DNA of 64,000 nucleotides. It comes from Candidatus Saccharibacteria bacterium oral taxon 488 (lineage in GTDB: Bacteria; Patescibacteriota; Saccharimonadia; Saccharimonadales; Saccharimonadaceae). The stretch covers positions 744,001-808,000 of the forward strand of contig CP039999.1 in NCBI GenBank assembly GCA_013099195.1. Reading direction: 5' to 3'. Numbering within the stretch: the stretch's first letter is position 1; every line of letters begins with the position of its first letter. The notes under the pieces were generated by a model that saw nothing but the letters and a program-made list of their open reading frames with translations, ran no database searches and was not told the DNA's origin. The position numbers were made by a program, and so were the translations under genes. Positions 15,484 to 59,563 of this stretch are shown piece by piece.

Positions 15484-16437
15484 CTAACTCTTGATGCGCG
15501 TACCAGCAGCACCGTTGATAGCGTCAGCGGTTTTTTCGAGCGAGGTGATGATCGCCGTACGCCCCGAAGCGCCGGCCACAAAACTTAACGCCGCCTGGGT
15601 TTTTGGTAGCATTGAGCCAGCCGCAAACTGCCCAGCATCAATATGCTGCTGCAGCTCCTCGGCTGATACTTCGCCAAGCGCCTGCTCCGTCGGCTGACCA
15701 AAATTGACCTTAGCTGCATCAACCGAGGTTAGGATCAATAGTGTGTCCGCCCCGAGTGTGTCCGCCAGTTTGGCCGCACCAAAATCTTTGTCAATCACCG
15801 CCGCCACGCCACTCAATTGACCCGATGCGTCACGCAGCACCGGGATGCCGCCGCCGCCAGTCGAGACCACCAACACGCCAGCGTCAACCAGCGCCTTGAT
15901 AACCGGAGCCTCAACAATCTCCTGAGGCTTTGGTGATGGCACAACGCGCCGCCAGCCACGACCCGAGTCTTCACGCACCGTATAGCCACGCTCGGCCTGT
16001 ACTTTCCTGGCCTCTTCTTCCGAATAGAATGGCCCGATCGGCTTGGTTGGATTTTGAAATGCTGGATCAGCCTGATCAACCACCGTCTGGGTAACGATGC
16101 TCGCTGCATACTTATCATGCACACCACGAGTTGCCAGCGCATCGTGGATTGCTTGCTGCAGCCAAAAACCAATTAGCCCCTGGCTCATCGCACCAGAATC
16201 TTCCAGCGGTAAGCTCGGCACCGCCTCGGTGTTAATCGCTTCCTCGTGTAGGACAATGTTACCGACCTGCGGGCCATTGCCGTGGACAATGGCTACACGG
16301 TGGCCAGCTTGAATCAGCGGCAGGAGCTGGGCAATGGTCTCGTCAGCCACTCGCTGCTGCGCCTGAGACGAGGCCTCGCCCTGACGTTGCAGGGCGTTAC
16401 CTCCAAGCGCGACGACAATAGTTCGCTGCTGATTCAT
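15484..16437 (-). CDS. arcC: Carbamate kinase
   Basis: 317 residues. It begins IVVALGGNALQRQG, with HGNGPQVGNI and STGGGGIPVL, the amino-acid-kinase fold motifs specific to carbamate kinase. It transfers phosphate from carbamoyl phosphate to ADP, the ATP-yielding last step of the arginine deiminase pathway, in the cytoplasm. Its ATG shares an A with the arcD stop (TAATG), so it is translated from the arc message. The length and all key motifs are normal. It is the last gene before the terminator at 15428-15462. Confidence 0.95.
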   Translation of the reverse strand: MNQQRTIVVALGGNALQRQGEASSQAQQRVADETIAQLLPLIQAGHRVAIVHGNGPQVGNIVLHEEAINTEAVPSLPLEDSGAMSQGLIGFWLQQAIHDALATRGVHDKYAASIVTQTVVDQADPAFQNPTKPIGPFYSEEEARKVQAERGYTVREDSGRGWRRVVPSPKPQEIVEAPVIKALVDAGVLVVSTGGGGIPVLRDASGQLSGVAAVIDKDFGAAKLADTLGADTLLILTSVDAAKVNFGQPTEQALGEVSAEELQQHIDAGQFAAGSMLPKTQAALSFVAGASGRTAIITSLEKTADAINGAAGTRIKS

Positions 16438-17990
16438 TAAGCAATGGCTCCGTATACCGTGATAGCTACGAGGCTAATTATCGCAAAGACCACCATGATT
16501 GGCATCGAGCGCTTCAACCATGCACGGTACGACACGCCGGCTAGGGCCAGACCACCCATCAATGAAGCAATGGTTGGGGCCATCATATTCAACAGACCCG
16601 ATGCCGCGGCAAATGCGACAACGATGATCTCCTTGCTGGAGCCGACTAGATCAGCCACCGGCGCAATGACTGGCATAGTTGCCGCCGCTAGACCTGATGA
16701 TGACGGAATGATAAAGCTCATCGGCAAGTAGAAGATATAGGCGAGAATACCAACAAAGCTACCCGCACCCTTCAGTGCAGATTCACCCCAGCTAATGATC
16801 GTGTCTTGGATCGCACCATTCTGCATCACCACGCCAACACCAGCTGCCACTGCAATGATCAGTGCCACACTCAGTAGATCGGCTGTACCCTTCAGGAAGG
16901 TGTCAACAACGAAGACTTCCTCTTTCTTGAATTGGCGATAATAAATCGCTGCGATGACTAAGGTTGACAACAGAAACAGGGTCGAGATCTCGTTGAAGTA
17001 CCACTCACCAAATGGCAAGACATGATCAAGACCCAAGATAGCACCAACGACCGGTAGCCCTGCAAACCATTTATGGATATCGGCGAACAGTGTGATCCCC
17101 CAGTTGCCCCACGGGATAAGCGAGATGATCATCAGTAGGAAAGTGACGCCAAAGACCGCCATCACTGCTTTACGCGGACCGGTAAATTCTGGCACGTTGC
17201 TCATATCAAGTGCGGTGGTGGCTGGCTTGTAGCGAACATCATCTTTATACTTACCAGCCTTTACCTTTGACGCGTATCGCATGGTGAACACGATAGCCGC
17301 GATCAAACAGAGCAGTAAAATTATTGATTGGAGACCCAACACATTACCGAGTGGCACGTCAGCCGACTTGGCAGCGATACCAGTCGAAAATGGATTCAAG
17401 GTCGAGCCAAGCACACCGACGCCACCACCGAGCACGATCACCATCACCGCGGTCATGGCGTTGTAGCCAGCCGCCATCATGATCGGCACCACCAGCGCAT
17501 AAAACGCCACTGCCTCTTCCTGCATGCCGTAGGTGGTACCACCGATAGCGAAGAACGTCATGAGAATTGGGATAAGCCATTTCTCCTTGCCCTTCATCTT
17601 GCGCAGCATGGCACCAAGCGTCGCATCCAGCGCACCAGTCTTCATCGTCACCCCGAGGAAGCCACCGAGGATCAACACGAAGACGATGACGTCGAGCTTC
17701 TCACTCATGCCCTTGATCGGTGCAAGTGCTGCATCCCACAAACCTTGGCGGGAATCAGTGGTTGTCTCGGTGCCGTCATCGGCTTTTTTAGTAGTGACTT
17801 TATCAGTCTGTTTATACGTACCAGCGATGCGCACTGTCTTTTCCGCATCATTTGGATCTGGTTTTGTGTTGTACACACCAGACGGGATAATCCACGTTAG
17901 GACTGCCATCAAGGCAATCACCACAAACAGCACGGTAAAGGCTGAGGGCGAGCGCAGCTTTTTCTTAATTTTTTTCATTTTTTCTACCAT
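16437..17990 (-). CDS. arcD: Arginine/ornithine antiporter of the YfcC/ArcD2 family
   Basis: About 517 residues with roughly 12 membrane helices. The start ...SPSAFTVLFVVIALMAVLTWIIPSGVY and the segments GTTYGMQEEAVAFYALVVP and IPSSSGLAAATMPVIAP identify the YfcC/DcuC-like (ion transporter superfamily) carriers used as arginine-ornithine exchangers in arc operons. It would bring in arginine and export ornithine across the cytoplasmic membrane. I place the start at ATG 17990 because AAAGGAGG sits 8 nt upstream of it. A longer frame begins at 18023 directly after the arcB stop, but its only site is the one inside this frame. Substrate specificity is inferred from the operon. Confidence 0.85.
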   Translation of the reverse strand: MVEKMKKIKKKLRSPSAFTVLFVVIALMAVLTWIIPSGVYNTKPDPNDAEKTVRIAGTYKQTDKVTTKKADDGTETTTDSRQGLWDAALAPIKGMSEKLDVIVFVLILGGFLGVTMKTGALDATLGAMLRKMKGKEKWLIPILMTFFAIGGTTYGMQEEAVAFYALVVPIMMAAGYNAMTAVMVIVLGGGVGVLGSTLNPFSTGIAAKSADVPLGNVLGLQSIILLLCLIAAIVFTMRYASKVKAGKYKDDVRYKPATTALDMSNVPEFTGPRKAVMAVFGVTFLLMIISLIPWGNWGITLFADIHKWFAGLPVVGAILGLDHVLPFGEWYFNEISTLFLLSTLVIAAIYYRQFKKEEVFVVDTFLKGTADLLSVALIIAVAAGVGVVMQNGAIQDTIISWGESALKGAGSFVGILAYIFYLPMSFIIPSSSGLAAATMPVIAPVADLVGSSKEIIVVAFAAASGLLNMMAPTIASLMGGLALAGVSYRAWLKRSMPIMVVFAIISLVAITVYGAIA

Positions 17991-18023
17991 GTCCGGAGCC
18001 TCCTTTACTCCTGTATTAGACAT

Positions 18024-19013
18024 CTACAGCGTCAAAGCGATAACCGCCTTGATGGTATGCATACGATTCTCCGCCTGGTCAAAGACGATCGAATTTGGCG
18101 AGCGGAAGACGTCATCCGTCACCTCCATCGCCTCTAGCCCGAAATCATCCCTGATGTGCTGGCCGGTCGTGGTCAACGCATCATGAAAGGCCGGCAAGCA
18201 GTGCATGAACTTGACCTCAGGATTGCCAGTAAGGTTCAGCATGTCGCGATTAACCTGGAAGTGACGCAGCTGATTGATGCGCTCAGCGAACTTATCCTCT
18301 TCGCCCATCGACACCCAGACATCGGTGTAAACGACATCGGCACCGCGCAGGGCTTCCTCAAAATTATCAGTGATAGTAATCCGCCCGTGGTTCTGGTGCG
18401 CCAGCTCATGCGCGTGATGGACGAGGCCCTCTTCAGGGAACAATTCACGCGGCGCTAAAATCCGAAAGTCCAGCCCCATGATGGCCGAGCCGAGCAGCAA
18501 ACTATTAGCCATGTTGTTGCGGCCATCGCCGACAAACACCAGCTTGACGCCGTGCAGCCGACCAAGGTGCTCCTCGATAGTCATAAAGTCGGCTAGAATC
18601 TGCGTTGGGTGGAACTTATCAGTCAATCCGTTCCACACCGGCACGCCGGCGTGCTTCGCTAGATCTTCTACCGTTTTGTGCGCAAAACCACGAAACTCAA
18701 TACCATCAAACATCCGGCCCAGCACCTTGGCGGTATCCTCGACTGTCTCTTTCTTGCCAAGCTGAATATCGTCCTTACCGAGATACTCCGGCGCGATACC
18801 GAGGTCGTTAGCTGCCACCGTAAAGGCGCAGCGCGTCCTGGTCGAGGTCTTCTCAAACAATAACGCAATATTCTTGCCCTCATGAATCCGATGCGGCGTA
18901 CCAGCGTACTTCATCCGCTTATATTCATTCGCCGTCGTTAGTAGCAACCGAATGTCACCCGCGGTAAAATCACCCAGTGTTAGGAATGATCGCCCCTTCA
19001 AACTTTGTGCCAT
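18024..19013 (-). CDS. arcB: Ornithine carbamoyltransferase, catabolic
   Basis: 329 residues. The carbamoyl-phosphate site [12 protein letters not shown] (STRT motif) near residue 55, the HPTQ motif in [17 protein letters not shown] and the ornithine loop [10 protein letters not shown] (HCLP) are all intact. In this operon it runs in the catabolic direction, splitting citrulline with phosphate into ornithine and carbamoyl phosphate. It starts immediately after the arcA stop (TAA then ATG) with GGGAGG upstream inside arcA, so the two are coupled. No arginine biosynthesis genes are nearby, which supports the catabolic reading. Confidence 0.95.
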
Positions 19014-20249
19014 TTATACATCCTCCCGTACCAGCGGCATACTCATACAGCGCGGACCGCCGCGGCCGCGGCCAAGCTCAGCACCACTGACTTCTATAAC
19101 TTCAACGCCGTGCTCGCGCAGTTTTTGGTTGGTCACATAGTTGCGGTCATAGGTTACCACCACGCCCGGCGCAATCGCCAAGGTATTCGAGCCGTCATTC
19201 CACTGCTCACGAGCCGCCGCAATTGGATCACCGCCGCCACATTCGATCAGGGTAACACTCGGCAGCCCCAAGGCCACCCGCAAGACATGCTCGAGATCCG
19301 TCTCGTGCGTAATGCGTGGGAACGGCTGTCCCTCGACCTTTTCCAATACGAAACAATTCATCTTGCCGCCGCGATCGCGGATTTCCGGATGAATAGTAAA
19401 CTTGTCCCGATCAATCATCGTAAACACCGTGTCCAGGTGCATAAAGGCGTGCGACTTTGGAATTTCCATGGCAACGACCTTCTTAAAGCCAGAACCAGCA
19501 AACAGTTTCGTCGCCATCTTTTCAATCGCCTCAGCCGTGGTGCGCTCCGATACGCCGATGGCCATCACTTCACTGCTCAACACTAGCTCATCGCCACCTT
19601 CAATTGAGAACTTTTCGTGGCGATCATACCACACCGGTACATTCTTGCCGGCAAACCGTGGATGATGATCAATGATGTAGCGCATGAATAGCGACTCACG
19701 ACGACGCGCCGGCCAGTGCATCTTGTTGATCGTCAGACCATGACCGATGGTTGCAGCCGGGTCGCGGGTAAAGTACAGATTTGGCATCGGATCGAGATAG
19801 AATGGATAGTGATTTTTCTCGATCATATTATGCAATTGCTGGTGCTGGTCTGGCGGCAGCGTAATCTCGTCCTTGCGCACACCGGCCATAATTTTACGCA
19901 CCATCGCGTTCGTTGGTAGGTCTAGCAGGAACTGGCGCAGCACCCTGGTGACGCGGCGTGACCCTTGCTTCGAATTTGCCAACATTTCATCAACAAACTG
20001 CTCGCGTAATTGATCAGTATATAGCGCCTCGGTCACCAGCTGATCGAGATACAACACCTCGACACCGTGATCACGCAATACCTGAGCAAACGCATCATGC
20101 TCCTTTTGGGCGACCTGCAAATACGGAATGTCGTCAAACAGCAGATCAGTCAAGTAGTCTGGTGTTAAGTTTTCTAATTCTTCGCCCGGACGATGCAACA
20201 GCACCGCCTTAAGTCGGCCAATTTCTGATGTAATATGTAATGGATCCAT
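19014..20249 (-). CDS. arcA: Arginine deiminase
   Basis: 411 residues, standard length. It has the guanidino-modifying enzyme fold with [13 protein letters not shown] near residue 160, [22 protein letters not shown], and the nucleophile Cys401 in [12 protein letters not shown]. It converts arginine to citrulline and ammonia in the cytoplasm, and is the first gene of the arc operon. Upstream is a purine-rich ribosome binding site (AAAGGGGATGGGGG) and a TATATT -10-like box ~35 nt before the ATG. I saw no clear ArgR site. In host-associated Saccharibacteria this pathway is known to supply ATP and raise pH. Confidence 0.96.
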
Positions 20250-22027: not shown

Positions 22028-22055
22028 AACGTCATTATAAATAACCTCCGGAGTA

Positions 22056-22082
22056 TTGACAAATAATCGATATATATATGCT
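22056..22082 (+). promoter_or_regulatory. Possible promoter of the graspetide-type locus
   Basis: TTGACA (22056-22061) and TATGCT (22077-22082) with a 15-nt spacer, shorter than ideal. The start would be near 22089, giving a ~58-nt leader that contains CAGGAG 7 nt before the ATG at 22147. Confidence 0.35.
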
Positions 22083-22146
22083 GAAACAAGCGTCGAGAAT
22101 TTCTAAACGCGTTCTTTACCATCATCTATTCGTTCAGGAGTAGACC

Positions 22147-23133
22147 ATGACTACAATTCTCATACTGACCAATTCTCTGGACAACCCTCATGTTGAGGCA
22201 GTGAGCCAATATATTGACTCAGAAAGCAATCGGATCATACGGATTGATACAGATCTTTTAATCCAAGGGCAATGTAGTATCTCTTTTGACTATTCAAACG
22301 GTAGTATACTATACAAGCAACTGGGAGAAATTACAGATCTTCGTAGTATTGATAGCGTATGGTACAGAAAGCCGTTCGGGTTCAGTCAAACCTACGGATT
22401 CCTTGAGAGTATCCAGGATCCAGTTCAAAGGTCTATCGTAGACAAAGAGATACATGATGTATTGAATGGTCTGTGTTTTCTGCTACGCGACAAGTTTTGG
22501 ATTAATCACCCTAGCTCCATTCATACAGCTAGGATTAAGCCATACCAATTGTCGATTGCAAAGCGTATTGGGCCGCCAATGCCCGACACACTGATTACAT
22601 CAGATCCAGACGCAGCTCGCCAGTTCTGTCTAGAAGCGCCAACCGTATTCAAACCGGTATCTGTATCTAGCCTAGATCTTGACGATACAGGCTACATGAT
22701 AGAAACCACGCTCATGACAGATGAGCTGATAGACTCCTTGGGATTGATCAAATCACAACCGATCATTCTGCAAAGGTTTATCAGAAAAACAAGTGAGTTA
22801 CGGGTCACTTGTATCGGAAAACAGATCTTCGTTGCCCGTCAGATTCCACAAGAGAAAACCTCCAGCACGGTAGACTGGAGATCTCTACAAGATTCTGGCA
22901 GTCGATACGTGATCGACTACGTCCTTCCCGAAGACATTGAGCGGAAGGTTCGTTCTCTGCTGACTTCGCTAGGTCTTGGTTTTGCTGCAATTGATTTCGC
23001 GATAGACGAAATCGGAGATCTGCATTTCCTTGAAGCAAACCCAAATGGCCAGTGGCTCGGTTACACCGATGAAATAGGCCTACCGGCAGCCGCACACATG
23101 GCGTGCTGCCTGGTGGAAAAAAGTCTACTCTGA
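22147..23133 (+). CDS. ATP-grasp RiPP maturase (MvdD/graspetide-type)
   Basis: 328 residues. The N-terminal region holds DSVWYRKPFGF (residues 70-80), like the WyRrP segment of MvdC/MvdD and SAV_5884-type maturases. The ATP-grasp part has FKP (Lys169), PIILQRFIRKTSELRVTCIG (hinge and Arg219), FAAIDFAID (Asp283) and the metal-binding FLEANPNGQW (residues 294-303) with EIGLPAAAHMA after it. Such enzymes use ATP to link Asp/Glu side chains to Ser/Thr/Lys side chains in a precursor peptide, giving ester or amide macrocycles. A 36-aa ORF with a strong ribosome binding site follows 20 nt downstream, exactly where the precursor is expected. No dedicated exporter or protease is adjacent. Base and codon use differ from flanking genes, so transfer is possible, perhaps from an actinobacterial host. 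Confidence 0.85.
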   Translation: MTTILILTNSLDNPHVEAVSQYIDSESNRIIRIDTDLLIQGQCSISFDYSNGSILYKQLGEITDLRSIDSVWYRKPFGFSQTYGFLESIQDPVQRSIVDKEIHDVLNGLCFLLRDKFWINHPSSIHTARIKPYQLSIAKRIGPPMPDTLITSDPDAARQFCLEAPTVFKPVSVSSLDLDDTGYMIETTLMTDELIDSLGLIKSQPIILQRFIRKTSELRVTCIGKQIFVARQIPQEKTSSTVDWRSLQDSGSRYVIDYVLPEDIERKVRSLLTSLGLGFAAIDFAIDEIGDLHFLEANPNGQWLGYTDEIGLPAAAHMACCLVEKSLL

Positions 23134-23153
23134 CAATCGAAAGGAGGTGAAGC

Positions 23154-23264
23154 ATGAACAACGCCGAGATCTTTTCCGCGAAAGTTGCCACGATCGTTGA
23201 TTCGGAGGTCGACTCGTCGACCTTCCTGACCCGATCCGGCAAGCCCAAGACGACGGACGACTAG
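23154..23264 (+). CDS. Candidate graspetide precursor peptide, 36 aa
   Basis: The ATG at 23154 is preceded by AAGGAGGTGA (23141-23150), the strongest Shine-Dalgarno in the window, 20 nt after the maturase stop. The peptide starts MNNAEIFSAKVATIVD and ends TFLTRSGKPKTTDD. The C-terminal part is rich in Thr/Ser (21, 22, 23, 26, 28, 33, 34), Lys (30, 32) and Asp (35, 36), the donors and acceptors joined by ATP-grasp maturases. The N-terminal half would be the leader. It resembles neither the microviridin TxKxPSD core nor a PFFARFL leader, so it would be a distinct class. The codons are strongly G/C-ended compared with the AT-rich gene that follows. The product and its linkages are inferred from context, not shown. 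Confidence 0.72.
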   Translation: MNNAEIFSAKVATIVDSEVDSSTFLTRSGKPKTTDD

Positions 23265-23276
23265 TCCCACGTCACA

Positions 23277-23310
23277 CCCCGTGCCCTTGTGTTTTTGCAA
23301 GGGCACGGGG
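23277..23310 (+). terminator. Strong GC-rich hairpin after the precursor gene
   Basis: A perfect 13-bp stem (CCCCGTGCCCTTG with CAAGGGCACGGGG) around an 8-nt loop. No T tract follows, so it may act as a terminator, an mRNA stabiliser or both. Confidence 0.6.
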
Positions 23311-23331
23311 TAACCTATCAAAGAGTATATT

Positions 23332-24066
23332 ATGAACAAGCACAAAATCATCAAAACATTCTTGCCGAAACAATTAGACATAAAACACCTCGATCTCCTG
23401 CTACCTGCCTTACAAAAGTCAAACCTAATTGTTTATGGTGAAATTCACGGCATAAAAGAAAATGCCAATATCGTCTATACCTTGGTTAAAAAAACTTGCA
23501 TACAACGATTGGCCATTGAAGCTAGCCCTACTGTGTTTGACTTCATCAATTCAGTAAAGATCAATTCTTATGATTTTTCCTTAGTTGATGAAGACCTTTT
23601 TGACTTAAGCGTTCTATCTCTTGAGATGATAAAAACGATAGCAATTCTTCTGCAGCAAAATCAACTTAAAGAGCTCGTTTTTATTGATACATTTTTTGAC
23701 AATTTAGATGAGGATGCCATCATACCACCAAGCCCGCAAGAACGAGAAGAGCAGCTAGCTAAAAATATCCTCGGAATTGACGGCTCTCTACCAACATTAT
23801 GTATTATGGGACAATGGCATACGCAGCCCAAAGTTGTTACAGATGGCGAAACACGGCATGAATCAGCGTTATATCGCTTGAGAAAAACAAAACCAAATGT
23901 GCCGTTTATTCACAACATCTACCGACAAGGACAGCTATTTAATGATGGAAAAATAATTGAATTACCAGACAACCCAGCAGTGTCGTCTTGTTACGAGATT
24001 GTCCAGAAAACCGATATTGATTTTGACCTTCACGTACCCGAAGCGACAAAAATATCACTATGCTAA
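23332..24066 (+). CDS. Hypothetical protein, possibly ChaN/TraB-Tiki-like
   Basis: 244 residues. IVYGEIHGIKENANIVYTL near residue 34, LAIEASPTVFDF near residue 60 and CIMGQWHTQPKVV near residue 160 give a Gly-Glu-x-His, then Glu, then Gly-x-x-His order. This resembles the GEx(H)..., E and G.H motifs of the erythromycin-esterase/ChaN/TraB-Tiki fold. Those families bind haem or act as metal proteases or esterases; no function can be assigned here. The gene is clearly richer in A and T than the ones before and after, which suggests transfer. It follows the graspetide-type locus after a hairpin, so co-transcription is uncertain. There is no signal peptide. AAAGAG lies before the ATG as a weak ribosome binding site. 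Confidence 0.55.
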   Translation: MNKHKIIKTFLPKQLDIKHLDLLLPALQKSNLIVYGEIHGIKENANIVYTLVKKTCIQRLAIEASPTVFDFINSVKINSYDFSLVDEDLFDLSVLSLEMIKTIAILLQQNQLKELVFIDTFFDNLDEDAIIPPSPQEREEQLAKNILGIDGSLPTLCIMGQWHTQPKVVTDGETRHESALYRLRKTKPNVPFIHNIYRQGQLFNDGKIIELPDNPAVSSCYEIVQKTDIDFDLHVPEATKISLC

Positions 24067-24069: not shown

Positions 24070-24075
24070 CATAGC

Positions 24076-24537
24076 ATGAAAATAACCAGCCCAGCCTTCA
24101 CTGAAAACGCTAAAATACCAAAAATTTATTCCAAGCTCGGCGGTAATCAACGCCCGCCGCTCGAGATCAGCGACGTACCGGCAAATACCAAAAGCCTGGT
24201 GATCATTTGCCACGACCCTGATGCGCCTGGGCGCGATGGATTTTACCATTGGACGGTTTGGAATTTACCAACCAAAACCACTGAAATCACCAGCGAATCA
24301 CTACCCGCGGGCGCCGTCGAAGGGATGACCAGTTGGGGTCGGCCTGGCTGGGGCGGGCCGCAACCACCGTTTGGCACGCACCGCTACCAATTTTATGTGT
24401 ACGCGCTGGACACGACGTTAGATTTACCAGACAGCACCAAGCCCAGAGAGCTCATCGCCGCTCTCACGCCGCATATCATCGATCAGGCCGTATTGACTGG
24501 AAAGTTTGGCGTGTTGGATATTTTGCGGCGGGATTAA
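24076..24537 (+). CDS. YbhB/YbcL family Raf kinase inhibitor-like protein (PEBP fold)
   Basis: 153 residues covering the whole family. MKITSPAFTENAKIPKIYSK opens the domain. The ligand pocket residues are in ICHDPDAPGRDGFYHWTVWNLP (D-P-D-A-P and H-W), and GGPQPPFGTHRYQFYVYALD is the second conserved motif. PEBP-fold proteins bind phosphate-containing ligands; the bacterial members have no settled role. Cytoplasmic, with no signal peptide. The leaderless promoter sits across the upstream stop codon. Confidence 0.93.
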   Translation: MKITSPAFTENAKIPKIYSKLGGNQRPPLEISDVPANTKSLVIICHDPDAPGRDGFYHWTVWNLPTKTTEITSESLPAGAVEGMTSWGRPGWGGPQPPFGTHRYQFYVYALDTTLDLPDSTKPRELIAALTPHIIDQAVLTGKFGVLDILRRD

Positions 24538-24616
24538 GCACCACTTTCTCTGGGCGAAAGTCTACAGACTATTAAACGACACCGCCAATCCTATTCTGTC
24601 ATCTATATTTTTTAAT

Positions 24617-27163
24617 TTATAACAGTTCAAGCACTAGGTTAATATACATTAACGAGATACTTTCTTCGTGCATGATTTTTAAGAAAGAAGTCTTATCAGT
24701 GCACACAGGACTTTCTTGATCAATTAAGATAAGCGCTCTCAGATTACTATTTTCGTGAATTATTTTTGCTAAACTACAATCAATCCCCGCTCTAATAAGA
24801 GCAATTTTAAAGTCATTATCAGTACCATACTTTATACGTTTATAAAACGACTCATTGACTACACCAAAATCATTCAATATCTCAAGAAATGGAATAATAT
24901 AATGGTCAACATTATCAAGATTCTCCTTAGCTAAAGCAGCCGCATAACTTGGCATCAAATTTTGAGTCTGCTGCTGAAATATATGATATTTATTCCACGA
25001 TCCAGTCTTGCCATCGACACCACAACTTCCTATATCGCCAACATATACTGGATTTCCGATTTTACCGCGCCACATAAAAACAGACCTTGCAATCAACGTA
25101 GAAAAGCTGGCTTCATTATTAGCTTTTTCGTCAATAATTCTTATATAAATATCCCTTATAGATGGCTCTGTGTATAGTAAATATATCCAATTCCCATACT
25201 TATGCTTATCGATCCTGAGACCTGTCTGATATGTCACCTCAAGAAAAACACTAATAATCGTATTTAATAACTTATTACCATCATCAATTATTTGAGTGTT
25301 CAAGAGATGCTCCATCTTTTTAGAGATGATTTGTTCATATTTCACAATATCAAATATTTTCACGTTATGGGCATAACACTTAGTACCTAGCTCAGTTTGC
25401 GCCAATAATGGCTTTGAGTTGTTAATTTGCGAATACATGGCTTCTCTTGTTTTATCTATATTTGCAAGTATGTTAACTTCATCGGCAATTCTATATTCCT
25501 TATCGCTTCCTTTATAAGAAGCAAGGAGCGGGTTATTGATACTGTCCTCAACTACAACCCCCTCCTTGGCATGCTCCGATAAGAATTTACTAGCATTTGC
25601 CCTCTTCTCCATATAATCATCATTTTTAATTATATATATTTCTGGTGTTAATAGTTCCATTCTTGGGTTTGTAAAATCAAAGATTATGTTATAACGGCCC
25701 ACCCTGCCCACTAAATTTCTGAAATCAGGAACGTCCAAGCACCTAGCCCCCTTGGAATAGTTCATTAAAAATAATTTACTTGCAGGAATATTCACGCCTT
25801 CGAGTAATGTGCTCGTAGTAACAATAAATCTAATCTCAGGAATATTACGATACAAGAACTCTACATGCTCCTTAATAGTGTCCGGTATCTTACCGTGACT
25901 GATAACTATGCCGCGTTTAACGAGCTTTATTAGATTATAGAAAGGATGAACATAGCTTGATAGGATATTACATGCATCATCAATTATAACTTGACTTTCA
26001 GGGCTGTATTTAATTTCTGGCGTCCTAGCAGCTAACGCATCGGCAAGTTTTTCAACTCCGCTTGGCTTATTAACATAAATAATATTTTTATCCCCACCTC
26101 TACTAAATAATATTTGGTAATAGTCTGTAGACGATTCAGTTATTTCGTAAAATTTTGCCGTAAACTGATCAAACAACTCTAAACATTGACTATTATTATC
26201 CCAAAGAAAATAACGTGGTATTTTCATATACTCAGTAATTTCTCTTGATTGTATATTTTTTGAATTATGTTTATCATTTATAAGACATAGACTTGACCTT
26301 GGGTCTACAATAAAAGGAGAGTAGTAATCAATGGCCACACTTGATTTTCTATTACTAGCGATTATGATTGCCCTCGAGAGAGTTAAGAATCTATCCTCAT
26401 CTTTAAATAAATTATGAGATTCATCAATAAATAGATAATCTATTATTAGCTCATTATGTTTCGCCAATAATGCCATTAGTCGCTCCTGTGTTAACACAGC
26501 AATAAATTGGCTATGCTTGTATTTTTTAACATACATGTCAGGATGAGTTATAACATCAGTTCGACTTCCTTTTTTGTTCAAAACCATTGATACTGTTTGA
26601 TTTATCAATGATTTAGTGGGAACAACTATACAAACAGACAAACCACTATTGAACTTTTCAATAGCTTTAGACACCATCAAATGAGACTTACCATAAGAGG
26701 TTGGCGCAACGACAGCAAGATTAGAAACATTTCTGACACTACGACTTAGTCTAAATTGTTGCTCTGATTTGTAATACTCTTCCTTATATGATTCTGCCAA
26801 CGCCTTATTAAATAGACTGTTCACGTCGTCCTCCACAGCCTCTAATTCTGTAGTATAACTATCGTGAGCTTGTATGAGCATAAGTACAGGATAGTATCGT
26901 AATAAGCTAGCAAAATGAGATAATGCATAAAAATTATTACTAAGAAGCCCGTAATTTAGGGCTATTGAATATGCCATTTTTTGCACATCCTCATCACCAT
27001 AAAGTGAAAAATAATTTAAGATTCTATATATAAATTGCGTCTCATCCTGAGCTAGATGCTGTCTCAACATTATTTTTCTGTATACTTTAGCAAATAAGAA
27101 ATTATGATCCTCAGCTTTCCTTGTTAATGCTGATCTTAAAGAGCTAAGAGTGATCTTGTACAT
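24617..27163 (-). CDS. hamB: HamB helicase of a Hachiman anti-phage system
   Basis: 848 residues from ATG 27163. A superfamily 2 helicase: Walker A APTSYGKS at residues 153-160, DEAH-type box DESH at 247-250, motif STLLEGVNIPASKLFL near 451-466 and motif VI NLVGRVGR at 483-490. A long N-terminal helical region (1-145) and ~350 C-terminal residues without recognised motifs match the HamB layout. In Hachiman, HamB surveys DNA and controls the HamA nuclease, which then degrades DNA. The ATG shares an A with the hamA stop (TGATG) and has AAGGAGG upstream inside hamA. The pair is strongly AT-rich relative to flanking genes, which marks a transferred island. Confidence 0.85.
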   Translation of the reverse strand: MYKITLSSLRSALTRKAEDHNFLFAKVYRKIMLRQHLAQDETQFIYRILNYFSLYGDEDVQKMAYSIALNYGLLSNNFYALSHFASLLRYYPVLMLIQAHDSYTTELEAVEDDVNSLFNKALAESYKEEYYKSEQQFRLSRSVRNVSNLAVVAPTSYGKSHLMVSKAIEKFNSGLSVCIVVPTKSLINQTVSMVLNKKGSRTDVITHPDMYVKKYKHSQFIAVLTQERLMALLAKHNELIIDYLFIDESHNLFKDEDRFLTLSRAIIIASNRKSSVAIDYYSPFIVDPRSSLCLINDKHNSKNIQSREITEYMKIPRYFLWDNNSQCLELFDQFTAKFYEITESSTDYYQILFSRGGDKNIIYVNKPSGVEKLADALAARTPEIKYSPESQVIIDDACNILSSYVHPFYNLIKLVKRGIVISHGKIPDTIKEHVEFLYRNIPEIRFIVTTSTLLEGVNIPASKLFLMNYSKGARCLDVPDFRNLVGRVGRYNIIFDFTNPRMELLTPEIYIIKNDDYMEKRANASKFLSEHAKEGVVVEDSINNPLLASYKGSDKEYRIADEVNILANIDKTREAMYSQINNSKPLLAQTELGTKCYAHNVKIFDIVKYEQIISKKMEHLLNTQIIDDGNKLLNTIISVFLEVTYQTGLRIDKHKYGNWIYLLYTEPSIRDIYIRIIDEKANNEASFSTLIARSVFMWRGKIGNPVYVGDIGSCGVDGKTGSWNKYHIFQQQTQNLMPSYAAALAKENLDNVDHYIIPFLEILNDFGVVNESFYKRIKYGTDNDFKIALIRAGIDCSLAKIIHENSNLRALILIDQESPVCTDKTSFLKIMHEESISLMYINLVLELL

Positions 27164-27987
27164 CAAACCCCTCCTTCAGCCCCTAAGAAATCAATAATAT
27201 CATCGAATAGTTTACGATGAATACAAATAATTATAAAATTATCAAAACACCCTGTATTCTTTATACTATCAATTTTCTTAATAACATCTTTCGTGTCTGT
27301 TATATTATAAGCAAAATCTCCAAAATTAACCGCCATAAGAATTGCGTTACGGTTAGTCCCCTCCCGTTGATAAACCATATTTCTACTGTTAGACAGTAAC
27401 TTGGTTAACTCTATTTTTTTCTCCGACGCAAATATTACCGCCACCTCTGCCTTAGCAGCCTCCCATCTATATCGAGTGGATGCCTGTCCTTCCGACATAA
27501 TATTATCAAAGTAGTTCTTAAGGCCCTTGCTCGCCCTATTAATTAGCTCTTCGCGATTAGTTTTTTCAACTAACCCAGATTTTACCTCGCCATACCATAT
27601 TTTTTTACAGTCCTTGTCATAAAAATTTAAATCAAAACCTGGCTTTATATTCCGATTTTGAAGTGCAAATATTCTACTCATGCTTTCAGCTGAAAAATCT
27701 AAATAGTTTGAAGCTAGAATATGCATCAATAACTCACCAATAACCCCGTACTTGCCTTCTTCGTCTTTACGACTCATTAGATTTTCATACATCTGCCTAC
27801 AAGCAGCTTGGTAGGTATATTCATCAGGCTCAATAGCAATAGGCTCTGTGCCATAGCAGACCTCTGCCAATTTAACCCTTATCATTTCTTTAAGGTCTTC
27901 AAAATGATGATCATTAATATTTAGTATTCTATACTTCACATGACCGTATTCATCTTTCACACACAATATATCGTCAGATAAAGACAT
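27163..27987 (-). CDS. hamA: HamA effector nuclease of a Hachiman system (DUF1837)
   Basis: 274 residues. The C-terminal part carries a PD-(D/E)xK-type site: Glu85 in GVIGELLMHIL, Asp119 in KPGFDLNFYD, and Glu134-x-Lys136 in WYGEVKSG. This is the order seen in DUF1837/HamA. HamA is the effector; it is held by the HamB helicase and released or activated on phage infection to degrade DNA. The reading frame is intact with all catalytic residues, so the system looks functional. TATACT (27995-28000) ends 7 nt before the ATG and no ribosome binding site is visible, so the operon is probably leaderless. It is followed directly by hamB with a one-base overlap. Confidence 0.85.
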   Translation of the reverse strand: MSLSDDILCVKDEYGHVKYRILNINDHHFEDLKEMIRVKLAEVCYGTEPIAIEPDEYTYQAACRQMYENLMSRKDEEGKYGVIGELLMHILASNYLDFSAESMSRIFALQNRNIKPGFDLNFYDKDCKKIWYGEVKSGLVEKTNREELINRASKGLKNYFDNIMSEGQASTRYRWEAAKAEVAVIFASEKKIELTKLLSNSRNMVYQREGTNRNAILMAVNFGDFAYNITDTKDVIKKIDSIKNTGCFDNFIIICIHRKLFDDIIDFLGAEGGV

Positions 27988-27994
27988 TCTACTG

Positions 27995-28000
27995 AGTATA
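27995..28000 (-). promoter_or_regulatory. -10 element of the Hachiman operon, leaderless
   Basis: TATACT on the minus strand, 7 nt before the hamA ATG, embedded in an AT-rich intergenic stretch (28001-28109) with no other feature that I can see. Confidence 0.55.
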
Positions 28001-28109
28001 CTCCATATATAATCTTTTTATCTAAAATAAAAGATTTAATTCAATTATATGACTTATTATATCATTTTAGTGATTAGTACAACTGAATGCTAACTTTGTC
28101 AGCGCACAA

Positions 28110-53232: not shown

Positions 53233-53422
53233 CAATAAATAACCCTTTTGAATTAAGAATATTACATATGTTTGACAATAAACAATTCTTCAAAGTATAA
53301 TTTACATAGGGACAATTTTGTTTCACGAAGACCTGTATCATTTGAAAGTTGGCTTCACGCCATCGAAGGGTATCCTTCTCAGAATGATATGGGTCTTTTT
53401 GAAATACAGAGCACCTAGTCAT
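53216..53422 (-). CDS. Candidate 68-aa small protein between DUF3800 and res
   Basis: A 68-codon frame begins at ATG 53422, five bases before the DUF3800 stop, and ends 17 nt inside res. It therefore fills the 180-nt space with overlaps at both ends, as expected for a coupled operon gene. The protein is basic with several Cys and aromatic residues and has no recognised motif. There is no clear ribosome binding site. It could be a chance frame in an AT-rich stretch; the position is the main support. Confidence 0.3.
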   Translation of the reverse strand: MTRCSVFQKDPYHSEKDTLRWREANFQMIQVFVKQNCPYVNYTLKNCLLSNICNILNSKGLFIDETKI

Positions 53423-54248
53423 TATTAACCACCCTGTTCTGCTTTGTAAGAGGGTTTTTCGGTCCATAATAATTCTGATAGTTCTCATATTTTGTCGTGT
53501 CATACAAATCCAAAATTAACGGGATTCTATCTTTCACAGCATCATAAAAACGCGTTTCTCCTTTTTCAAAAACTCGCTGCACCGTCCATAAAATATAATC
53601 TGTTATTGCCAGCACTGGCTCACTACTATACCTCTGGACATTAAATTTTATATCGGCCCTGTACTTATATCGACGTGTCTTTGCATGACGTTCATGCGCC
53701 TGCGATAGAGCAATTTCTAGATTATTATTTTTCGTACTACTTCCACGCTCCGCAATGTTAATAACTAACTTTTCGTAATTTCCCTTATCTTTCAACAGAT
53801 GAGAAAGCAAGTCAGCATAAAATTCTCTTTCCTGAGAGTGGTGTTTATTGACAAACCTCGTAAGCCGTTTACGCCCCACCACCATCTGTACAGAGAAATC
53901 TATACTCTCAAGCAAGAACATAAGGAACTTATACCGAAGCTCTGGCGGATCATCCTTGGCGTGCAAATAAAAACCGCCTTGATCTATGCGCTTTTTCACG
54001 CTAGGTATTTCGTTAAAATACGGATCACTCTCTATTTCTTTGCAAAATACCCTAATAAAACCACACACCTGCTCTAAATCTTGTTTGATATGCGCCATAC
54101 CTAATATAAATGTTCTAGAAATACCGTTGCTACCCAAAGGAGCTGGTGCTTTCCCCTTCAAGAAAAACGTCATGTCGCCCGCCTCATCAATGAAACGGTG
54201 ATAGGTATATGGCTTTAGGTTGTTTCTCTTTTTGTTAGATTCAATCAT
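53415..54248 (-). CDS. DUF3800 domain protein
   Basis: 277 residues. YTYHRFIDEAGDMTFF near the N-terminus carries the DEaG signature of DUF3800, a predicted RNase H-like (ribonuclease or nuclease) fold whose acidic residues bind metal. ITDYILWTVQRVFEKGETRFYDAVKDRI near the C-terminus is the usual closing motif (D...w...r). Such genes recur in defence islands and mobile elements. It sits inside the type III R-M operon, with an ATGA overlap with a 47-aa ORF upstream. It may act on host or phage RNA or DNA after infection; that is inference. Confidence 0.82.
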   Translation of the reverse strand: MIESNKKRNNLKPYTYHRFIDEAGDMTFFLKGKAPAPLGSNGISRTFILGMAHIKQDLEQVCGFIRVFCKEIESDPYFNEIPSVKKRIDQGGFYLHAKDDPPELRYKFLMFLLESIDFSVQMVVGRKRLTRFVNKHHSQEREFYADLLSHLLKDKGNYEKLVINIAERGSSTKNNNLEIALSQAHERHAKTRRYKYRADIKFNVQRYSSEPVLAITDYILWTVQRVFEKGETRFYDAVKDRIPLILDLYDTTKYENYQNYYGPKNPLTKQNRVVNND

Positions 54249-54388
54249 AACACCACTTCCACAGAATTCGGAAATCCCGAATTTTCTACATAGCTATTCG
54301 TAATTTCCGAACAACTGACTATTTCGTTAGTTGCCTGGTTTTTCCGGACAACTGAACAACTATCTCCATTTACAATAAACAACTTCAT
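54245..54388 (-). CDS. Candidate 47-aa small protein in the R-M operon
   Basis: A 47-codon frame from ATG 54388 to TGA 54245. It starts one base after the stop of the coiled-coil gene (TAG, G, ATG), with GGTGAATAGG upstream as a weak site, and overlaps the DUF3800 start by 4 nt (ATGA). It opens MKLFIVNGDSCSVVRKNQAT and has no membrane segment. Both junctions are typical of translationally coupled genes, which supports coding. The sequence contains two SCS-like Cys motifs but no known domain. Confidence 0.45.
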   Translation of the reverse strand: MKLFIVNGDSCSVVRKNQATNEIVSCSEITNSYVENSGFPNSVEVVL

Positions 54389-54389
54389 C

Positions 54390-55735
54390 CTATTCACCTA
54401 TTTCCTGTTTTGCAAGATCTTTTAAGTTATCAACCTCTTGGTGAATCTTTCCTACGGTTTGGTTTGTTTCGGCCGTTAATTTCAATATTTTATTACCTAC
54501 ACCGAAAGACCATCGCTCCTTTTTAGTCTCTATTGGCTCTTGATATATAGAGTTAAATGTACAAATTGCAAAATCGGTAATCTTTTTATCTCTATTTTGG
54601 TCAGATAATCCTTCAGTAGAACGTAGAAGAGTATTTAGCGATGTCTCGATAGAGTAGGTGCTTATAGCTTTGAATGCGTATTTCTCATACAAACGCCTTT
54701 CCTGAGAGTATTGATTCAACGAATATATAAAAGCGAAGGTTGTAGGTGTCAATATACTGAAACGCAACAAAAGCGCACTTAGGTTTACATCAAGAGAATG
54801 TTTCATGTTGTATCCCATTGGCACAATGAAGCATACAGCTAAAATTACAGTCGCTATAAGGGATATCGAAGATATTATCATCCATACTACAAACATCTTT
54901 CTAATCTGATTACGCCTCTCAACAAAGTAGTTGGCATGCGCACCTTTAGTTCCTATGTCAAATATTTCTTGTATTTTCTTTTCAAGCTCAGCACTTTCAT
55001 CATATTTATTCTGGATTTTTTGAGTTGTATTGTCCGCATTGCCTTTAAAATTCTCAATCTCCTTGATGTATTCGGCTGCATTATCACGAAAAATACGAAT
55101 TTCTTTGTACACAGTTTCTGCATTAGATTTAACAGCGACAATGTCGGATTTTAATTTAGTTGCTTGATCCAATATCGCCTGAAGGCCTGTTTCCTCGTCT
55201 GTAATTTTATTGTTGAGTTCGGTAAACTCAGTATATGCGGTCTCCATTTCTTCAATGCTCGACCGAACACTATTTAGGGATTCAGTGATTTTTTGAAGTT
55301 GTGCATCGGCGTTCACTTTTGATGCACTAATATTACCTTCCAATTCTTGTGCGGACTCCAATATCGCCTGAAGGCCTGTTTCCTCGTCTGTAATTTTATT
55401 GTTGAGTTCGGTAAACTCAGTATATGCGGTCTCCATTTCTTCAATGCTCGACCGAACACTATTTAGGGATTCAGTGATTTTTTGAAGTTGTGCATCGGCG
55501 TTCACTTTTGATGCACTAATATTACCTTCCAATTCTTGTGCGGACTCCAATATCGCCTGAAGGCCTGTTTCCTCGTCTGTAATTTTATTGTTGAGTTCGG
55601 TAGTTTGCTTTAGATACTCTTCAATTTGGACTTTTATATTTTTATATCATCGTGAGCTTTCTGAATGACATCTATCTTTGCTCGAGACACCATCAAAACC
55701 TCATTCAATTTTTTGCCGTAGTCACGTGTATTCAT
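54390..55735 (-). pseudogene. Coiled-coil membrane protein with exact tandem repeats, broken by a 1-nt frameshift
   Basis: The ATG at 55735 shares an A with the mod stop (TGATG) and begins MNTRDYGKKLNEVLMVSRAK, but the frame stops after 33 codons. Adding one A to the AAAAA run (plus T5, 55639-55643) restores a continuous ~448-residue protein; the 1346-nt length is 3n-1 as expected. The N-terminal ~300 residues form a long coiled coil with two exact 63-residue repeats and a partial third. Two membrane helices follow (FVVWMIISSISLIATVILAVCFIVP and LLRFSILTPTTFAFIYSL), then a ~110-residue C-terminal domain. I do not recognise the family. It may be a membrane accessory of the R-M system. Whether the break is real, a switch or an assembly error cannot be told. 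Confidence 0.6.
55169..55602. repeat. 189-bp exact tandem repeat (2 full copies plus partial third)
   Basis: The unit recurs at 55171, 55360 and 55549 with period 189 bp. Copies look identical base for base; the third is cut off near 55602. 189 bp is 63 codons, exactly nine heptads, so the coiled-coil register is kept. Confidence 0.9.
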
Positions 55736-57555
55736 CACACCACCTCCACCTCAACACCTTGCCGTTCGGCTTGCAAGAGCAGGTTTACTTTTAGATTTAT
55801 GTCGTCACCGAAGGATCGGTCGAGGAGGATGATGGATGAAGGTTTGGTGGCGAGGATGGCTGTAAATAGCTCCTCTGTTATGGAGTGCGCCAAACAAATA
55901 GCCAGCTTCTCGGAAGGGATAAAGCAGAAGTTATCGTGCTGCTCAATCTTCGCCAATGGTGAGATGCCTCGCTTGAGCAGGAGCTCGGTCAGCAGGTCAT
56001 CATCAGTTGTACCCTCCTCTAGCGGGTCAAGGTTAGCAAGTGCCTGCTGGCGAATCTCCTCTGGGTCAGAAACTAGCTCGTTCCACTGCTTGAAGTTGCT
56101 ATCATCCACCCGATATGCCCGAAAGCCAAGGTCAAGCGGAGTGTCACGAGAGGCGAGCTTGTCCGCCTGGTCAGTACTGATCTTGGCGCCCGCCCGACGG
56201 ATGCGCTCACGAGCAATGTCTGCGATGGTGCGGTAGCCAGCTTTATACGCCTCCGACTTCTCGTCAGTCAGCTCAGGCAGCTGCACACAAATCCAACGAC
56301 GATTGCCACCGTCTTCGGCGTTAAGCTCAGCAACAGCATGAGCGGTTGTACCCGAGCCAGAGAAAAAGTCGAGGATGATATCGTTGTTTTTACTCGATGT
56401 TGATAGTTTTAATAAGTGATTTATCAAAGAGACTGGTTTTGGGTTATCGAAAAATGAACCATCCATAATATTATCTACTTCAGCCTGTCCCGACTGGGTT
56501 GATCCGTGGTCCAGAAGTAAATTCGGATTGGCCGATGAAGTGTCCGTATCTTCGTGGGAATATATCTTTAGTTTTATTATTCCATCTTTAAGTATAAACC
56601 TATGGTTCGATTCAAGCTCACGCGCTTTCGCTTCACCAATCTGCCACCTCTTGCCTGGGCGGGGTGTTTGTCCTAGAATTTCAAACTTCATAGTCTCACG
56701 GTCGTAACCACCGGTACTTTTCTTCTCTATTATGGCCGTTCTATAACTACCCTCGTCATCACTATACGGATAACTTCTGTTGTCTTTTGAGAATATGCGC
56801 TGATTAAGCTTTGCTACTTCACTTCTTGCATAAACCAGCATATATTCAGTCAGTGCACTTATTTGCGACCCTGAAACATTCGTTGAAGTTCCCTTTTTTC
56901 TCCAAATCAACTGCGCTACAAAATTCTCCTCCCCGAATATCTCATTCATCACCAGACGGAGGTTGTGGACTTCGTTGTCGTCGATCGAGACGAAGATGAC
57001 GCCGTCTTGGCGGAGCAGGTTACGTGCCAGGAAGAGGCGTGGATACATCATATTCAGCCAGTTGCTGTGCTTATGCCCGCCGGTATTGGTACGCAGACCG
57101 TCATCCCGCACAACGTTACCCTCATCATCAGTGATGCCCGCCTCTGCCTCGTAGCTACGGCGTGTCTGCTTGAAGTCGTCATTGTAGATGAAATCATTGC
57201 CAGTGTTGTAGGGCGGATCGATATAGATCATCTTAACCTTGCCGTAATACGCCTTGTGCAAGATCTTCAGCGCCGCCAGATTGTCGCCCTCGATAAACAT
57301 ATTGCCCGTCGTATCCCAATCGACAGAATTCGCCCGGTCGGGGTGGAGCGTCTGGACGGTCTTCTCCTGGATAGTGGTGAAGACGTCGCTCTTACCCTTC
57401 CAGCCGAGCCCGTAGCGCTCACCCAAATCAACCGCCTCGCCCAGGGTCGCCTGGAGCTTCTGCCAGTCGATCTTGCCTTCGGTGACTACCTCGGGGAAGA
57501 GCTGCTGGAGTTTGTCAATTTGTTGTTGATGTATGTTATCGTTGTAGCCGTTCAT
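55735..57555 (-). CDS. mod: Type III DNA methyltransferase Mod subunit (adenine-specific)
   Basis: 606 residues. The beta-class N6-adenine methyltransferase order is seen: DPPYNTGNDFIYNDDF (catalytic DPPY at 113-116) comes first, and the SAM-binding motif DFFSGSGTTAHAVAELN comes later. VIFVSIDDNEVHNLR and RRWICVQLPEL are typical of type III Mod. It methylates adenine in an asymmetric site and gives specificity to Res. It begins 12 nt after the fic stop with AAAGAG upstream. The target-recognition region (residues ~200-370) contains a long Ser/Thr/Asp-rich insert. The target sequence is not predictable here. Confidence 0.93.
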   Translation of the reverse strand: MNGYNDNIHQQQIDKLQQLFPEVVTEGKIDWQKLQATLGEAVDLGERYGLGWKGKSDVFTTIQEKTVQTLHPDRANSVDWDTTGNMFIEGDNLAALKILHKAYYGKVKMIYIDPPYNTGNDFIYNDDFKQTRRSYEAEAGITDDEGNVVRDDGLRTNTGGHKHSNWLNMMYPRLFLARNLLRQDGVIFVSIDDNEVHNLRLVMNEIFGEENFVAQLIWRKKGTSTNVSGSQISALTEYMLVYARSEVAKLNQRIFSKDNRSYPYSDDEGSYRTAIIEKKSTGGYDRETMKFEILGQTPRPGKRWQIGEAKARELESNHRFILKDGIIKLKIYSHEDTDTSSANPNLLLDHGSTQSGQAEVDNIMDGSFFDNPKPVSLINHLLKLSTSSKNNDIILDFFSGSGTTAHAVAELNAEDGGNRRWICVQLPELTDEKSEAYKAGYRTIADIARERIRRAGAKISTDQADKLASRDTPLDLGFRAYRVDDSNFKQWNELVSDPEEIRQQALANLDPLEEGTTDDDLLTELLLKRGISPLAKIEQHDNFCFIPSEKLAICLAHSITEELFTAILATKPSSIILLDRSFGDDINLKVNLLLQAERQGVEVEVV

Positions 57556-57567
57556 CGTTTTTTCTCT

Positions 57568-58725
57568 TTATTCTGTTGCTTCATTTTTTACTACTAATAA
57601 ACCATTTCTATCCATAGCCAACAACACATCTCTTAATAAATAGTTATTAGCAAACCTCATAACGTACTTCTTTTGGTAGTCAGGATGAACCATGAGCAAT
57701 CCTTTGTCTCTCATATTCGTCAAAACACGAGACGTCTGCACCGCAGCAGAGGCGGTTGGTCCAAATAGGTGTCTTACGTCTTGTGCTTGAATTAGGTCTT
57801 TTTGCATGGCTATCTTTAAAATCTCATGCTCTTCTGCAGATATAAATTGACTATCAAGGGCGCTTTTTAATGCTGGCTCTATTATATTTGGCACAGCATA
57901 ATTACGATCTAATAGTTTATTCACCCTGACCATCTCACTAGCTATGCCCCGTGCGACATATAGACACCAATCCTCTAATGCTTCTTCCTTGCCAGAGTCT
58001 GCTGCAGCCAATTTATTATAGTATTCTTGACGATCCATACAAAAAATAGCCGAAGGATTTAAAATAGTCCGCATAGTTTTGTTGATAAATTTAGCCTTAA
58101 TAAGCATCGCATACGTGACAAGCCTTGCCGTTCTACCGTTTCCATTATCAAATGGGTGTATTGCGGCTAGTCGATGGTGTGCAAGAGCAATTTTGATAAT
58201 ATCCATTTTGTTATCATTATCATCAGCAATATAGTCGCATAACTCCTGAATAAGCCGGGGTATCTCTATATGATTTGGCGGCTCATGATCGCTTTTTTTA
58301 ATATGTACTGAGCAACTTCGCCAATCTCCAGGCCACTTACTACCATCGTGCTTTAAATCAGTAACAACTATTTTCTGAACTTCACGAATAAAGGAAGGAG
58401 TAATTTGTTGACTGTCATCTCCATCAAAAGTCTCTTCAATAAAATCTATCGCCTTCCTGATGTTGCGAAGCTCTTGAAGGTTTTCGTCGCTGGGCTTTTC
58501 ATCATTACTCAATGAATCCATGGCGGCACTAACCACCGTTGTACGATTACCTTCAATTCGAGCAGACGCGACACTTTCTAATATGTACATAATCTCTCTC
58601 AAATCAAAGAATAGCCATGGCGGAGTCGTGCCCCCTAAATGGGTATAGCGAATTTTCTCCAAATTAAATAGTTCACTCACCAATTCTGAGTTAAATGATG
58701 GGTTGATAGATTTAAGAGGATTCAT
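57568..58725 (-). CDS. Fic family protein (AMP transferase-like)
   Basis: 385 residues. The Fic motif HPFDNGNGR (190-198) is complete, and an inhibitory helix motif SARIEGN (54-60) occurs before the core (class II Fic, [S/T]xxxE[G/N]). The N-terminal ~60 residues precede it, and the C-terminal ~110 residues form a winged-helix-like domain (FGPTASAAVQTSRVLTNMRDKGLL). Such proteins transfer AMP from ATP to target proteins and are self-inhibited. It is the first gene of the R-M operon. TATAAT (58732-58737) ends 6 nt before the ATG with no ribosome binding site, so the whole operon would start leaderless. Confidence 0.92.
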   Translation of the reverse strand: MNPLKSINPSFNSELVSELFNLEKIRYTHLGGTTPPWLFFDLREIMYILESVASARIEGNRTTVVSAAMDSLSNDEKPSDENLQELRNIRKAIDFIEETFDGDDSQQITPSFIREVQKIVVTDLKHDGSKWPGDWRSCSVHIKKSDHEPPNHIEIPRLIQELCDYIADDNDNKMDIIKIALAHHRLAAIHPFDNGNGRTARLVTYAMLIKAKFINKTMRTILNPSAIFCMDRQEYYNKLAAADSGKEEALEDWCLYVARGIASEMVRVNKLLDRNYAVPNIIEPALKSALDSQFISAEEHEILKIAMQKDLIQAQDVRHLFGPTASAAVQTSRVLTNMRDKGLLMVHPDYQKKYVMRFANNYLLRDVLLAMDRNGLLVVKNEATE

Positions 58726-58731
58726 ACCTGC

Positions 58732-58737
58732 ATTATA
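58732..58737 (-). promoter_or_regulatory. -10 element of the fic-mod-res operon, leaderless
   Basis: TATAAT on the minus strand, 6 nt before the fic ATG. The rest of the 58726-58845 gap is AT-rich with a short GTTAA...TTAAC repeat and no gene. Confidence 0.6.
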
Positions 58738-58845
58738 TATGTTTGTTAAATTTCAGTCAACACTTTTTAACATTTTTCTCTCATATTAATCTGTTATATT
58801 CCATAGTCTGTTAATTTATTTCTTAACATTTTGTTATATAGTTAG

Positions 58846-59508: not shown

Positions 59509-59514
59509 ATAGAC

Positions 59515-59520
59515 AGTATA
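59515..59520 (-). promoter_or_regulatory. -10 element of radC, leaderless
   Basis: TATACT on the minus strand, 6 nt before the ATG at 59508. Confidence 0.55.
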
Positions 59521-59563
59521 GCAAGCACCCCAACTAAGCTAAAGTGTCAGACCGCACACATAC

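Follow-up and report, generated by a model that had tools for sequence, protein, structure and literature searches.

A probably acquired, minimal graspetide locus in a Saccharibacterium genome and its conserved precursor family

Results

A two-gene cassette in the window

A 64,000-nucleotide stretch of the genome of Candidatus Saccharibacteria bacterium oral taxon 488 (contig CP039999.1, positions 744,001 to 808,000; hereafter the window) carries a cassette of two genes, an ATP-grasp synthetase (the maturase) and a short precursor peptide gene, which very probably constitutes a horizontally acquired, stand-alone graspetide locus making a ring-shaped peptide. Four observations from sequence comparison carry this reading: the fold of the maturase, a conserved precursor family, the position of the precursor behind the maturase in two organisms and an empty site in congeners. 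A first-pass annotation, made from the letters alone, had proposed a graspetide-like two-gene locus for a ribosomally synthesised and post-translationally modified peptide, and the class of the maturase and the conserved precursor family now support that proposal. The features of the cassette are as follows.

22066–23309, forward strand: probable acquired cassette, about 1.25 kb (congeners G491, locus L067, and G507, locus L068, align on both sides)
22147–23133, forward strand: graspetide-type ATP-grasp synthetase (maturase), 328 aa (Pfam, PDB profile, model and structural matches)
23140–23150, forward strand: ribosome binding site of the precursor gene, AAAGGAGGTGA (longest match among 44 genes)
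23154–23264, forward strand: precursor peptide gene, 36 aa (alignment with 11 relatives; synonymous divergence from Kibdelosporangium)
23166–23198, forward strand: conserved leader, residues 5–15, EIFSAKVATIV, mostly ETFSARVATRV in the family (12-precursor alignment)
23223–23261, forward strand: core, residues 24–36, FLTRSGKPKTTDD (12-precursor alignment)
23276–23311, forward strand: hairpin closing the cassette, a probable terminator (perfect 14-bp inverted repeat, 23276–23289/23298–23311)

The maturase

The open reading frame (ORF) of the maturase carries all four motifs quoted for it earlier (WYRKP, Lys169, QRF and FLEANPNGQW), and in a 69-row alignment with five invariant columns Lys169 and Gln209, the Gln of QRF, occupy two of these. 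An MvdD-type pre-ATP-grasp domain is present (Pfam PF21068, 45.8 bits, cut-off 27), the six PDB sequences matched by the maturase profile are all graspetide-type ligases, and the structures closest to the maturase model (predicted local distance difference test score, pLDDT, 92.6) were MdnC, AMdnB, CdnC, PruB (which we take to be a graspetide-type ligase), MdnB and PsnB. The top NCBIfam model was TIGR04187 (SAV_5884-type; 191.2 bits, under the curated cut-off of 350), and the scores against the MvdC model TIGR04185 (157.6 bits, cut-off 425), the MvdD model TIGR04184 (147.4 bits, cut-off 475) and the grasp-with-spasm model TIGR04192 (94.5 bits, cut-off 230) were likewise under their cut-offs.

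A glutathione-synthase or RimK-like enzyme was ruled out by the NCBIfam scores, PDB profile matches and structural matches; together with the Pfam result, these place the maturase among graspetide synthetases and not among the glutathione-synthase-like enzymes that the first-pass annotation had named as the alternative. That the enzyme is a peptide ligase, adding amino acids to the C-terminal carboxylate of the precursor or to its side-chain acids in a RimK-like or pheganomycin-PGM1-like manner, is very unlikely: the nine better entries of the structural comparison are graspetide-type ligases, as are the PDB profile matches, the MvdD domain is there, and ahead of the acids the core of the precursor retains Thr, Cys/Ser and Lys.

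The precursor gene and its signals

The 36-residue ORF begins 20 nt past the maturase, as had been reported. Its ribosome binding site, described earlier as the best in the window, is indeed the longest anti-Shine-Dalgarno match among the 44 genes tested, and the string AAAGGAGGTG is present once in the window. The hairpin 3′ of it is a perfect inverted repeat as claimed, with an arm of 14 bp and not 13 bp; its folding energy is −31.8 kcal/mol (z −6.0; 0/200 shuffles equally stable), and no copy of its arms, with up to 2 mismatches allowed, was found elsewhere in the window. It has no U-tract and was not listed by a consensus terminator scan.

The claim that the codons of the locus look foreign holds in part. 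G+C content at third codon positions (GC3) is 0.84 in the precursor gene against a mean of 0.57, a value reached by 0.7% of 4562 overlapping stretches of 37 codons from the remaining 43 genes. That of the maturase is 0.45, so the codon argument for foreignness is uneven; the empty site in G491 and G507, set out below, is the better evidence of acquisition.

The precursor family

In Kibdelosporangium aridum, a maturase that is 49% identical to that of the window is followed after 26 nt by a 43-aa ORF ending SFLTRCGKPKKTDD. This ORF has a ribosome binding site of the GGAGGTGAT type, and it too is followed by a strong hairpin. The precursor has thus been seen directly 3′ of the maturase in two organisms. 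The two precursors matched with an E-value of 2e-9 (BLASTP, single comparison) and have 19 residues in common, 12 of which (start codon included) are encoded by different codons; in the core alone, 8 of 11 common residues differ in codon. A profile of both precursors recovered 10 further precursors of 36–45 aa, and for three of these the longest contig is as long as that of a maturase match, which suggests that they may share contigs. The expectation of a conserved short ORF behind the maturase in relatives was therefore borne out, by the Kibdelosporangium ORF and a family of 12 members.

The leader motif ExFSAxxA (E5, F7, S8, A9 and A12) is present in all 12 precursors, and V11, T13 and V15 in 11 of them. 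The core, FLTR[C/S]GxPKxTDD, is invariant at F24, L25, T26, R27, G29, P31, K32, T34, D35 and D36, so that every member ends in TDD, while the length and residues of the segment between leader and core vary, in the usual leader-spacer-core layout. Nucleophiles are followed by Asp in the core throughout, which confirms that the Ser/Thr/Lys and Asp residues named earlier for side-chain macrocyclisation are in place.

It is scarcely credible that the 36-aa ORF arose by chance. It is short, it matched nothing in NCBIfam or Pfam, and no homologue came up when the Kibdelosporangium precursor was the sole query, but eleven aligned relatives and synonymous divergence speak for a gene, and on these grounds the possibility was rejected.

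Cassette boundaries and acquisition

In the window the cassette is flanked by a TylF-like gene and a gene with a GExH motif (23332–24066), and these two genes adjoin in G491 and G507, where 40 bp and 61 bp, respectively, lie between the aligned ends against about 1.25 kb in the window. The other seven genomes of the genus gave partial flank matches (four genomes) or none (three genomes). Two congeners thus have no cassette at the corresponding site, and it was probably acquired: insertion of 22066–23309 is the simplest reading, with loss in both congeners as a less likely alternative. The foreign origin suspected in the first-pass annotation is thus upheld by the empty site. No direct repeat of at least 10 nt was found at both cassette edges. 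A profile of the maturase, strongly positive in Kibdelosporangium, matched in none of nine genomes of the genus of G507.

By RecA, the nearest of 105 genomes compared were G507 (94%) and G483 (92%). G507 falls in the GTDB family of genome G011, which was taken from the phylum of a Roizmanbacteria metagenome-assembled genome, and the assignment of the window to the phylum Patescibacteria is supported.

Of the two genes read in the cassette, neither encodes an exporter or a protease, in line with the earlier statement that the locus has none of its own. The GExH-motif gene might be proposed as the leader protease of the system, since it lies directly 3′ of the hairpin and Tiki/TraB genes occur near graspetide synthetases in branch 2 loci of the Candidate Phyla Radiation (CPR) (PMC8939145). 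It is, however, unlikely to be a member of the cassette because it stands in the same position in G491 and G507, both without the cassette; it has no Pfam match and its structure model (3 rows) reached a pLDDT of 35, and we regard such a role as highly improbable.

Distribution of the maturase

Maturases were placed in a quick 94-row tree, which included 24 other Patescibacteria, 19 other Pseudonocardiaceae and two Streptomyces tgmB sequences. The window maturase fell within a 36-row clade (Shimodaira–Hasegawa-like approximate likelihood ratio support, SH-aLRT, 100) together with Kibdelosporangium and metagenomic sequences, and the clade holds none of those other rows (0/24, 0/19 and 0/2, respectively). 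In genome samples, which overlap, clade-level matches were judged by E-value with Kibdelosporangium (1e-160) as the reference. No maturase match of that strength was found in 379 genomes of the phylum (23 weaker, best 9e-63) or in 394 genomes of the family of G011 (10 weaker, best 5e-46), and 392 genomes of the class of G011 gave nine matches at 1e-30 or better (best 1.5e-48). Two actinobacterial samples were searched with 5–7 candidates scored per genome: the family (390 genomes) gave 46 matches at 1e-40 or better, with Kibdelosporangium alone beyond 6e-49, and in the class (306 genomes) Kibdelosporangium alone reached 1e-60.

Searches of mobile elements gave only distant relatives of the maturase by tblastn (84 records from plasmids and 2 from phages, each below 60% identity), and none of 12 maturase candidates in viral contigs was confirmed. 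Among plasmids, neither the window precursor nor the cassette DNA found a match and the Kibdelosporangium precursor found one weak match (E 4); in viral contigs, one pattern search for the precursor found nothing, and in another 0/97 pattern matches were confirmed.

Twenty-two Patescibacteria loci were inspected by script and by eye, and in six the maturase has beside it a short ORF containing a PFG motif, upstream in L016, L017, L025, L026 and L069 and downstream in L027. Locus L006 has a precursor-like ORF of another kind:

L006, 1338–1466, reverse strand: precursor-like ORF 3′ of a Patescibacteria graspetide-type maturase, with a hairpin and a run of T after the ORF

Its leader, PEVFAMLIATPV, has the form PExF....AT, like that of the window family, its core is different and its C-terminal part is rich in Thr and Asp. 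The local score against the precursors P0083, P0086 and that of Kibdelosporangium was reached by 0/500 shuffles. A kinship of the leaders is nevertheless suggestive only, because shuffles match the score for the window precursor and for P0079, as detailed in the Discussion.

Neighbouring genes and other observations

A promoter-like site (22034–22062, reverse strand, 11/12 match) precedes the TylF-like gene, with its −35 element where the cassette begins on the left; such sites were fewer in the promoter scan than the shuffle average. The GExH-motif gene has GEIHG and GQWH motifs and looks TraB/ChaN-like by eye; its middle stretch is nearly identical to that of G491 and its ends are more diverged, which suggests recombination. 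A second stretch, 24070–28105, is missing from G491 and G507, where the GExH gene abuts an ABC transporter; it holds a PEBP-family gene and a Hachiman-type defence pair, HamA (PF08878, 27.4 bits, cut-off 25) and a HamB-like helicase. The region 53415–61669 has the look of a defence island (type III methyltransferase, Fic protein [SoFic], GmrSD-type nuclease and DUF3800 protein), and 15484–20249 contains an arginine deiminase set (arcA, ornithine carbamoyltransferase, a YfcC-like antiporter below cut-off, and arcC), which is compatible with a Saccharibacterium. Outside the window, an ORF 3′ of the Kibdelosporangium locus (L001, 8049–8561) looks like a tyrosine recombinase by eye, and a Leptospira phage record (L078, 1501–2469) encodes a maturase relative with 31% identity.

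Discussion

Proposed product

For the product of the locus we infer ring formation, the ring partners, leader cleavage, export and the biological role. The synthetase would bind the short leader ExFSAxxA of the 36-aa precursor and phosphorylate the side chains of its last two residues, Asp35 and Asp36, each of which would then be linked to an upstream nucleophile with a loss of 18 Da; the two Asp side chains set the maximum at two rings. The likeliest partners would be Thr26 and residue 28 with D36 and D35, giving a hairpin around a GKPK turn, and the main alternative would be a Lys32–Asp36 lactam. K30 and T33 vary among the 12 precursors and appear less likely. In graspetide rings, according to PMC12291112, Thr, Ser or Lys on the N-terminal side is mostly linked to Asp or Glu on the C-terminal side, and a ring of K32 and D36 would have the K-x-x-x-D form seen in corallotide in its KIVAD ring (PMC13097080). 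Since the cassette was found to encode neither exporter nor protease, removal of the leader and export are proposed to fall to general cell enzymes. Activity of the peptide against a host or competitors is speculation. Modification should be easy to assay, as the precursor has 36 aa and a 13-aa core; the calculated monoisotopic masses are 3873.894 for the unmodified peptide, 3855.884 with one ring and 3837.873 with two.

Residue 28

Eleven of the 12 precursors have Cys at position 28, and solely that of the window has Ser. The side chains of both residues can act as nucleophiles, so the exchange is what a ring-forming position would allow, and residue 28 might be a ring-forming nucleophile. 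Ser28 could also be taken as a loss of function in a decaying locus of the window strain, given that P0077 is identical to the window peptide except for its Cys28. Both ORFs are open, though, all other residues invariant in the 12 precursors are retained and Ser is an accepted graspetide nucleophile (PMC12291112), and we consider decay quite unlikely.

With ring formation at residue 28 as the favoured reading, the Cys28 relatives come into view. Enzymes of this kind can form thioesters, according to PMC12291112 in the context of substituted nucleophiles, and PMC13097080 (2026) calls such links non-native, so by these accounts a natural thioester graspetide would be new. No open-licence literature naming ‘graspetide’ together with ‘macrothiolactone’ was found. 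Natural thioester rings in the Cys28 relatives are possible. It is doubtful, but conceivable, that the conserved Cys core encodes a macrothiolactone, that the window copy switched to a Ser ester and that the cassette passed between a host-dependent bacterium and Actinobacteria. Actinobacteria are the phylum of the known Saccharibacteria hosts. A conserved Cys with one Ser replacement frames a clear question: thioester or not.

Weight of the evidence

Several points weigh against the overall interpretation. The maturase scores under the NCBIfam curated cut-offs for all named maturase families; the core has four conserved nucleophiles for two Asp side chains, which would allow more than one ring pattern; the window precursor stands apart from its 11 relatives at position 28 and might be a drifting copy; and the score of the L006 ORF was matched by 20/500 shuffles against the window precursor (63/500 against P0079). 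What began as a guess on a single genome has become a testable precursor family with 12 precursors, one leader and one core, and the empty site suggests that a minimal graspetide locus may have moved as a unit into a small genome.

Comparison with known systems

The window maturase shares its fold with the microviridin and chryseoviridin enzymes (MdnB, MdnC, CdnC), which gave its best structural and PDB profile matches, and the precursor likewise has an N-terminal leader and a C-terminal core. The cassette differs in having a single synthetase with the precursor downstream. The microviridin core motif, as we assume it to be, does not fit that of the window family. Nor does the leader, PFFARFL (PMC8939145), which occurs in 0/12 precursors, and the earlier statement that the peptide fits neither the leader nor the core of microviridins therefore stands.

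SAV_5884-type systems (TgmB, TIGR04187) provide the best NCBIfam model, but Streptomyces tgmB lies in a separate clade, and two Streptomyces plasmid loci have tgmA upstream, with a methyltransferase gene following (named tgmC in one). The graspimiditides (fuscimiditide, ThfB), with a two-ring stem-loop made by one synthetase, offer a fair model of the ring pattern (PMC12291112), whereas the RPFG leader motif of this group (group 13; PMC13003496) is in 0/12 precursors. No PIMT methyltransferase was read among the two cassette genes; the TylF-like gene upstream has a match to PF05711.

A 2022 paper (PMC8939145) described graspetide loci of candidate-phyla bacteria together with the idea of action on host or competitors, so of the novelty claimed earlier it is the precursor group that appears new, and not the occurrence or the suggested role. 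CPR branches 1 and 2 of that paper resemble the window in being graspetide loci of candidate phyla, but the branch 1 core TxxxTx(6-10)Dx(1-4)D, which most though not all branch 1 cores fit, fits 0/12 precursors, and the leader pattern Phhx(1,2)h occurs in 1/12, outside the leader. Searches of open-licence literature found none of four core strings and no text naming ‘graspetide’ together with ‘Patescibacteria’. PMC13097080 extends 24 known graspetide groups by 19, and candidate phyla occur in groups 27 and 42; group 27, with which the window family could conceivably be identical, has only a synthetase and a precursor, as in the window. Otherwise the precursor family appears to be undescribed. 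The locus is real, minimal and probably acquired, and very probably represents a new group within the known graspetide class.
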